Positions 1,695 through 3,815 of a stretch of DNA of 64,000 bases are shown here, piece by piece. Position numbers and translations under genes: made by a program. This DNA is from Proales similis (Eukaryota > Rotifera > Eurotatoria > Ploima > Proalidae). Every line of letters begins with the position of its first letter. Within the stretch, counting starts at the first letter, position 1. Below the pieces are notes generated by a model. It was given only the letters and a program-made list of their open reading frames with translations. It was not told the origin of the DNA and did no database searches. The stretch is taken from NCBI GenBank assembly GCA_019059635.1, contig JAGVRJ010000007.1, positions 868,001-932,000 of the forward strand, in the 5' to 3' direction.

Positions 1695-3815
1695 CTAATT
1701 GACGTTTAAGAGAAGATTTGTAAGCTTTAGCGACGATACAATCGTGTATAGGAACCGAGAGTAGCTCTCGTACATGTCTGGAGTGATGGTCACGTAAGCG
1801 CTCAGGTAATTTAAAACGCTGAAAAGCAGCTGGGCCAACTGGTGGCTTTTGATAACGGCAAAACAGGAGGTGTGAACGCTGTCCACTATGATGGTGCCTG
1901 TCTCGGTCAATGGCGTGTACAGACCCATCTGCTGGCTTTTCTCACTTGTTTCAACTCTCACCCAGTCGGTCTCTGCTTTCATTGCATCCACGTAGAGTAT
2001 CAAGTCTCCGATTTTAGCCTCCGCAGCCGACACATATTCAGGCTCACTTGACTCATCTGTTTTCAAGTAGATCAAGTGACGAGCTGTGAGCTGAATTTGT
2101 CTTGTCTGGCTTTTAGCATTGAAGCCCAGCTTGACGAAATCGCCTGTCTCGTTCTCTGCCCGATGCAGGAAGCTAAGAACTCTGCTGGTTTTACTCGAGC
2201 CATTGTCCACGCTGACTGCAACTTCGTCATCGACTCTCAACTCGTCCAGTCTCTTTTCGACAAGCTTGCCTCCAATTTGCACAAACACTTTGCCACTTGC
2301 CGGAAAGCATTCTGAATTTGTTCAATTCAACGGTCTAGAACAAGGCGATTGAGAGCCAACTTACCAAACCATGGCCAGTAAATATTACGAGGCTGAGCCG
2401 AATCCAACTCTTCTCTGTCTCTGAGTTTGTTGAAAGTGAACACAGGCACGTAATCTTCACGGTCGAATACTTTCACAGGTTTTTCCTCAGCCAAATTGGA
2501 GTCCGCAAGCTTGGTTGTCTCAATTGTTGTGGTTCTTGATCGCTTAGAAGAGAAGACCGTCGTTTCGGTTGATTCGGCGCTCGTGCTCGAACTACTCTCG
2601 ACTTGTTCAATCTCGTCCTCAATTTCACTTGACTTTACTTGGCCAGTCTTATTAAATTGAGGCTCAGTTTGACATCGATCACCACTGAAACCATTCAGAC
2701 AAATACATATGCCGTCAATTAGCAGTCCATCATTTTCACATTCGATGTCCTTCTTCCCTTGTGATGTAATAGACTCGGTTGTTGACACGATGGTCGTATC
2801 AACTAACTCAGTTGTTGACTGAGTCGTTCTTGCTGAACTTGAATGAGGCTCTTTCCTTTTATCGCATAACTCGCCCTCGAAACCTTGATCGCAAACGCAT
2901 CCTTTGTCAGTGAAGCATTTACCGTTCTGGCACTTGATCAGGGCACATTCGTCGATTCGATCGCAGAATTTGCCAACTGCCGGTGGTACGCACTCACAAG
3001 TGCCATTCTTGAGGCATTTGCCCATCTGGCATGTATTGTAAGTGCAGCGTTCAATCGTGTTCTCGCTCTTTGGAATAAAAGTGTTCGGCGTGTATATGAG
3101 TCGAACTGGATCCATCAATTGGCCAAGCTCTTCAGCACGAAGAGCAGGAGGCTTCTTTGATATTTTTATTTCAGCTAGAGATTTTGCTTTCTCAGTGCTT
3201 TTTCTCGGCGTCGTCGTCGTCGTCGCCGTCGTTGGGCTAGTTGTCGCTTCAGAGGTTAAAACTTGGCTGGTGAAAGTGTTGGTGGATTGAGTCGTTTCTG
3301 ATTCAATAGACTCATCGGGCTGTTGCTTTAGAGCGCAGTATTTGCCTCTAAACGAGCCGATACAGATACAACGGAAGCCCGAGCGAGCGTTCTGTACGCA
3401 AACTCCGGAGTTCCAGCACGGATTCGACGAGCAGACATCGCTCGGATTTGGAGCCGCTCTGTCACATCGCTTGCCCATAATATACTAAGAAATGAAAAGT
3501 TCAATTAGAGCCGATCGAGGTGGTTTAAGCATCTTCTCAACCTTATCGCAGTGACAAACGAATTCGGTTCCGTTCTTGACGTTTTCACAACGACCATAGC
3601 GGCAATTCCTTTCGTGTAGTCGCGAATTTTTCTGCTGTGCACAGGCCTGGTCGTAATCGCCGTCGGGCGTGAGCTCGTCGATGCCTTGACGATTTCATAT
3701 TAAAACGCTTTCATCCTCTCTCTGTTTGACAAACTCAATTCTTACCCAGAATGAACGAAGAGGATGGAAAATTAAAGCACAAAAAAATGCATAAAAGTGC
3801 GCATTTCCATTGCAT
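1695..3815 (-). CDS. Secreted multi-EGF protein with C-terminal Hedgehog-type Hint (Hog) domain
   Basis: Four exons fit by splice sites and phase: 3746-3815, 3542-3684, 2365-3484 and 1695-2311, giving about 649 aa. The start at 3815 opens a hydrophobic signal peptide (MQWKCALLCIFLCFNF). About five EGF-like modules follow, each with six-cysteine spacing (for example ending GKRC, GKYC, GKFC, GELC, GDRC), separated by Thr/Ser-rich linkers. The last exon codes for a Hint domain: it opens with CFPASGKVFV, has the TARH block (Hedgehog TxxH) and the closing block GTIIVDSVHTSCFAVIKSHQ. In Hedgehog this domain cleaves itself before the Cys and attaches sterol to the N-terminal part. No Hedgehog signalling (Hedge) domain is present, so this is a Hog relative, not Hedgehog. 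An intron lies one base-step before the Hint Cys. Autoprocessing is inferred; the residue before Cys is Glu, not Gly. Confidence 0.85.

Follow-up and report, generated by a model that had tools for sequence, protein, structure and literature searches.

A gene of the monogonont rotifer Proales similis (family Proalidae) was found to encode an array of epidermal growth factor (EGF)-like modules joined to the Hint (Hog) domain of Hedgehog proteins, with no Hedge signalling domain. It lies in a 64,000-nucleotide stretch of contig JAGVRJ010000007.1 (positions 868,001 to 932,000; G000:C7:868001-932000), hereafter the window, and we call it EGF-Hog1. EGF-Hog is a real, conserved and mislabelled class of Hog protein and not a Hedgehog. 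Judging from its sequence, the window protein is probably (about 0.68) a self-cleaving EGF protein, likely sterol-tagged, from a lineage that reuses Hog on new partners. The evidence consists of direct observations on the domain architecture and its conservation, the orthologues and paralogues, the catalytic residues, the predicted fold and a Dispatched gene in the same genome.

The gene runs from 3815 to 1695 of the window on the minus strand. Hand splicing of its four exons gives an open frame of exactly 649 amino acids, so the position, strand and length proposed in an earlier note on this DNA were right. The three introns measure 61, 57 and 53 nucleotides, all with GT-AG borders. The protein begins with a signal peptide, called by eye and not by a signal-peptide program, followed by five EGF modules on Thr/Ser-rich linkers, the Hint and a tail resembling the sterol recognition region (SRR) of Hedgehog (Table 1). 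The modules were counted by their CxC...C signature. In Pfam, the spliced protein reaches 27.8 bits for EGF_2 (cut-off 22.1), a sum over the whole protein with no single stretch passing, and falls just under the cut-off for EGF (20.6 versus 21.5 bits; 26.6 bits on the long exon alone) and under that for EGF_TEN (48.7 versus 65 bits). The C-x-S-x-P-C motif of EGF2 is presumably an O-glucosylation-type site; an O-fucose-type match in EGF3 was discarded, as it sits between the wrong cysteines, and a motif check of the window protein EGFs found no Ca-binding consensus. The last intron is in phase 1, one codon ahead of Cys1 (TTT G/AA TGC, the slash marking the intron), which makes the residue at position -1 a Glu. 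Between the upstream stop and Cys1 the frame of the Hint exon contains no Met, which excludes an independent start of a complete Hint at that point.

The blocks by which the earlier note had recognised the Hog domain (CFPASGKVFV, TARH and SCFAVIKSHQLAQ) are all present, and the domain matches PF01079 with 124-128 bits (124.1 bits on the spliced protein against a cut-off of 29.7, E 7.9e-36). No HH_signal match was obtained in the window protein at E<=0.1. With five EGFs by Cys signature, the interpretation of that note as an EGF array plus Hog without Hedge is supported.

To examine the active site, eight Hints (the five of this genome and those of the related proteins P0001, P0002 and P0005, described below; P0003 and P0004 have none) were aligned with the Drosophila and human Hints. 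The window Hint keeps Cys1, Thr69, His72 and Cys143 in Hedgehog numbering, within the motifs C, TARH and SCF. Position 46, the general base Asp46 of Hedgehog, is His in the window Hint and in seven of the eight altogether, with Asp only in the gene L010, a comparison that covers the sequences just named. Position 69 is Thr in four Hints and Ser in the other four (L008, P0005, L009 and L010). The residue at -1 is Glu in EGF-Hog1, Val in both EGF-Hog2 proteins, Ser in trypsin-Hog and Arg in L007 and L010, and in no case Gly.

The corresponding substitution in Drosophila Hedgehog, D303H (D46H), is described as retaining activity, structure and pKa while widening the sterol range, with more than 200-fold better use of coprostanol and more than 300-fold of epicoprostanol (PMC9163320; this and the other papers are cited from the portions of their text available). 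Replacement of Asp303 by Ala stops the sterol step and not the acyl shift (PMC4695875). Since that change blocks the sterol step only and His46 is intact, the alternative base kept at position 46 suggests that the second, sterol-dependent step may be retained. An AlphaFold2 model of the window Hog, calculated from 7 input sequences, has a mean predicted local distance difference test (pLDDT) value of 81.1. The Hint fold is that of a predicted model and not of a solved structure; its best match in the PDB is 6tyy, the Drosophila D46H protein itself (E 1.3e-11; template modelling score 0.90 by target, 0.66 by query), followed by the wild type, 1at0 (E 4.5e-11).

We then compared the window protein with about 5.8 billion proteins, scoring the 7990 candidates with most shared words at a threshold of E<=0.001, and obtained four matches (P0001-P0004). 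P0001, labelled 'desert hedgehog' in Brachionus plicatilis (676 amino acids, E 1.5e-104, 34% identity over 95% coverage), carries five EGFs, WPWFEC and Hint in the same order, so the domain order anticipated for relatives was recovered; Brachionus belongs to another family (Brachionidae) of the same order. P0002 contains EGF5, a Thr-rich stretch and the Hint. Identity to P0001 is 26% in the N-terminal stretch, 71, 37, 53, 64 and 62% in EGF1 to EGF5, 7/7 (100%) in the block IYWPWFE, 38% in the Hint and 41% in the tail, and 5, 18 and 16% in linkers A, B and C.

In the whole genome (32,716,893 bases, 15 contigs), PF01079 matches six stretches corresponding to five genes, L005 and L006 being two exons of one, and a search with the window Hint returned the same five. 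The N-termini of the other four were read from 9-9.5 kb around each, and a Hedge domain was recognised in none of the five genes. One of them, EGF-Hog2 (L008), encodes seven EGFs, counted by Cys pattern with one match that fell within the signal peptide left out, and has a phase-1 intron one codon before Cys1 as in the window gene. Its EGFs contain motifs which we take to be O-glucose- and O-fucose-type sites. Among 1515 candidates its Hint has a single match, P0005, a Brachionus protein of 462 amino acids with EGFs and Hint that is labelled 'Neurogenic locus Notch' (44% identity in this search). Taken with the pair formed by the window protein and P0001, this pair defines two EGF-Hog families, each conserved across two rotifer families.

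A third gene, L009, combines trypsin (203.8 bits, profile 1-220 of 220) with a Hint (124.6 bits), and as modelled it may be a serine protease that releases itself and carries a sterol tag. Were the last intron retained, the trypsin frame would stop 7 codons on (...WIESKGNLINDL, then the stop); the frame of its Hint exon has no Met ahead of Cys1, which speaks against the intron-retained reading. The Hint of this trypsin-Hog gave no protein match at E<=0.001 among 475 candidates, and the architecture thus comes from one genome and a hand-made model. The last two genes, L007 and L010, are the only ones recovered from the genome with the N-domain of L007 (L010 at 30% identity). In L010, and in no other of the eight aligned Hints, Ser replaces the second catalytic Cys, and from its sequence this protein may be inactive. 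A tree of ten Hints (midpoint root, deeper branches weak) groups the window protein with P0001 and P0002 (support 99/96) and EGF-Hog2 with trypsin-Hog (99/98; 84/84 for the EGF-Hog2 pair). The placement of trypsin-Hog beside EGF-Hog suggests that the N-terminal partner was swapped.

Searches for the Hedge domain itself, with PF01085 over the whole genome and with a typed SHH-N query, gave no matches and were run without a positive control; the non-Hedge N-termini of all five Hint genes are the stronger argument against Hedge. The Patched profile has six genome matches (L011-L016) and the sterol-sensing profile five, at the sites of L011-L015. Among these, Dispatched is present as L015 (G000:C15 844949-848149; 328 bits to 'Protein dispatched homolog 1', 7rph). 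L011 is closest to NPC1 (151.9 bits versus 114.7 for Patched), L012, L013 and L014 look, from their letters, like NPC1, NPC1 and SCAP, and L016 was rejected as Patched given a weak profile match and a translation that by eye is unlike it. Both PF01534 genes score far higher to Frizzled than to Smoothened (523 versus 151 bits and 482 versus 133 bits). Hedge, a clear Patched and a clear Smoothened were not found in the genome, which does not prove their absence, and Gli was not searched for. There is a partial SUFU match (48.8 bits, G000:C1:3384675-3384926) despite the upstream Hedgehog parts not found. The genome also has 14 MBOAT matches, none identified as HHAT.

How the window protein relates to known Hog proteins can be judged from its N-terminal partner and its active site. 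With Hedgehog (Hh/SHH/DHH) it shares the C-terminal Hint and SRR-like region, Cys1, TxxH, the Cys of the SC motif and the predicted 1at0/6tyy fold, and it differs in lacking Hedge, in having an EGF array as cargo, in reading Glu-Cys-Phe around Cys1 where Hedgehog has Gly-Cys-Phe, and in replacing Asp46 by His. Its tail of 44 residues, predicted as helical, is conserved with Brachionus and has no full HWY motif. The reading as a true Hedgehog was rejected, as all five Hint genes are without a recognised Hedge domain. The nematode warthog, groundhog and quahog proteins resemble it in coupling Hog to an unrelated secreted N-part and in coming from an animal in which Hh was not found. Two extra central cysteines are given as typical of their Hogs (PMC2362128), whereas the window Hog has only two cysteines, Cys1 and that of the SC motif. 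Together with the lack of any Wart or Ground match in the window protein at E<=0.1, this rules out a nematode-type Hog. Lophohog of molluscs and annelids is also a spiralian Hog with a non-Hedge N-terminus, and is set apart by its description as having a unique N-terminal domain, which the available text does not term EGF (PMC5103448, PMC9695228). Hoglet of choanoflagellates and GmGIN1 of a fungus, too, join Hog to another known domain, cellulose-binding-like and GTPase-like respectively, and in the accessible text of a 2008 survey they are the only proteins of lower eukaryotes named with distinct other N-domains (PMC2362128). The Drosophila D303H protein shares the His at the general-base position; there it is a laboratory change, and in the rotifer set it is natural. 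In the open papers searched, the portions available contain no description of EGF-Hog or trypsin-Hog (subscription papers and outside preprints lay beyond the search), and the EGF mentions in the available text of PMC7765530 are unrelated to EGF-Hog.

On these grounds, the window protein is probably a secreted precursor related to Hedgehog, with five EGFs on Thr/Ser-rich spacers standing in place of the Hedge signal. In the endoplasmic reticulum the Hint would form a thioester at Glu445-Cys446 through an N-S acyl shift by Cys446, aided by Thr520 and His523; a membrane sterol, delivered by the SRR-like tail and activated by His494 at the place of Asp46, would then displace the thioester, setting Hog free as a separate fragment and leaving the EGF array esterified with sterol at its C-terminal ...WPWFE. 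So tagged, the array would be held at the cell membrane or matrix, or leave via the retained Dispatched. Cleavage at Glu445-Cys446 is likely, and we lean slightly towards sterol attachment over plain hydrolysis. Release by Dispatched can be proposed only tentatively, and the same holds for the idea that the product acts as an EGF ligand at short range or bound to the matrix, neither reaching even odds.

Several observations weigh against this reading. All three EGF-Hog1 Hints have Glu at -1 where Hedgehog has Gly, the window tail lacks the full HWY motif that EGF-Hog2 keeps, and the pLDDT of the tail is only 51-67 (ten-residue means) and 38 at its end. The state of the motif and these low values make sterol capture less sure than cleavage. 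In addition, the Brachionus partner P0001 is itself a gene prediction, and the models of P0003 and P0004 are partial, containing EGFs and lacking the Hint, with P0004 reading through after WPWF where the window gene has an intron. The tail also lends itself to an account in which the Hint cuts without sterol, the thioester being hydrolysed; Hog would then serve only for maturation, as an internal protease setting free a soluble EGF protein. Hint without SRR is described as still forming a thioester that is cut by water (PMC4695875), and spontaneous hydrolytic processing of vertebrate domains has been reported in the available text of PMC13060885. Such an outcome is a serious alternative, although an unlikely one, because the tail is as strongly conserved as the Hint and because position 46 retains a residue that could serve as general base, a position relevant to the sterol step and not to the acyl shift (PMC4695875).

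It is improbable that Hog has no catalytic activity and is a relic or structural cap, with the uncut protein as a matrix protein: the Glu at -1 would fit this, yet all three members of the clade retain Cys1, Thr, His and the second Cys, and the decayed-looking copy in this genome is L010, not the window gene. Separate transcripts for the EGF and Hint exons, which the earlier note had named as a refutation, are spoken against to the extent that comparison can tell: P0001 and P0002 hold both in one predicted protein with the junction WPWF-EC, and P0003 and P0004 do not include the Hint. Left unspliced, the EGF exon does continue past WPWF for 12 codons before a stop, as two wrongly joined genes might. 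A wrong join of two genes is nevertheless extremely improbable, and we reject it on the lack of a Met for a lone, complete Hint and on the order, phase-compatible junction and WPWF-EC peptide shared with P0001 and P0002; the paralogous EGF-Hog2, with the same phase-1 intron before Cys1 and its own Brachionus orthologue, points the same way.

Table 1. Features of EGF-Hog1 in the window and of the other Hint genes of the genome.
Feature	Position	Strand	Remarks
EGF-Hog1 exons	3815-3746, 3684-3542, 3484-2365, 2311-1695 (stop included)	-	Hand-spliced model; orthologue P0001
Exon 1: Met and signal peptide (MQWKCALLCIFLCFNF...)	3746..3815	-	Judged by eye
EGF1, aa 48-78	3464..3613	-	Interrupted by the 57-nt intron; 71% identity with Brachionus P0001
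EGF2, aa 87-121	3335..3439	-	Site C-x-S-x-P-C, common to Brachionus
Linker A, Thr/Ser-rich, ~aa 122-214	3053..3334	-	Segment comparison with Brachionus
EGF3, aa 216-245	2963..3052	-	Cys pattern; inside EGF_TEN match below cut-off
EGF4, aa 246-278	2864..2962	-	EGF_2 match; Cys pattern
Linkers B (aa 279-316) and C (aa 343-438)		-	Segment comparison with Brachionus
EGF5, aa 317-342	2672..2749	-	Cys pattern; inside EGF_TEN match below cut-off
Pre-cleavage block IYWPWF-E, aa 439-445	2310..2383	-	Split by phase-1 intron 2364-2312; -1 residue Glu
Hog domain (Hint and SRR-like tail), aa 446-649	1698..2309	-	Pfam, alignment, fold match
Hog codons: Cys1; His at Asp46 place	2309-2307; 2165-2163	-	Derived from spliced model, checked on letters
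Hog codons: TARH Thr; TARH His; SCF Cys	2087-2085; 2078-2076; 1865-1863	-	Derived from spliced model, checked on letters
SRR-like C-terminal tail, aa 606-649	1698..1829	-	44 aa; two helices, low-confidence prediction; no full HWY
L008, second EGF-Hog (EGF-Hog2)	L008 4951-6728; G000:C2, about 2,944,000		Signal peptide, EGF array, Hint; 513 aa
L009, trypsin-Hog model	L009 3056-4978; G000:C7, about 1,419,000		Signal peptide, trypsin, Thr-rich linker, Hint; 538 aa
L007	L007 2846-3854		Small Cys-rich N-domain without Pfam match, Hint
L010	L010 2298-3431		Small Cys-rich N-domain without Pfam match, Hint
aa, amino acids; nt, nucleotides.

A broader scenario, speculative and rather doubtful at present, is that monogonont rotifers lost the Hedgehog signal together with Patched and Smoothened and kept Hog as a portable sterol-tagging device on EGF arrays, a trypsin-type protease and small Cys-rich proteins, with His46 widening the sterol range and the kept Dispatched releasing the cargo. 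An oxidosqualene/hopene cyclase-type match (194.9 bits, G000:C3:2934875-2935854) was also found in the genome, and in view of it the idea that rotifers depend on dietary sterols and hence need a lax Hog was set aside.

Two public Brachionus labels, 'desert hedgehog' and 'Neurogenic locus Notch', are exposed as misleading by the EGF-Hog families. Hedgehog proteins have been called singular for their covalent ligation to cholesterol in the accessible text of PMC7242414; if the broader scenario above is true, sterol modification would extend to a family of secreted proteins outside Hedgehog signalling, including a sterol-anchored protease. EGF-Hog and the trypsin-Hog model would show Hog working at the C-terminus of ordinary extracellular domains as an interchangeable device. 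These rotifers would also provide natural Hints with the His46 general base that has been studied in the laboratory in mutant form, and they would open Dispatched function to a natural test in an animal without a detected Hedge domain.
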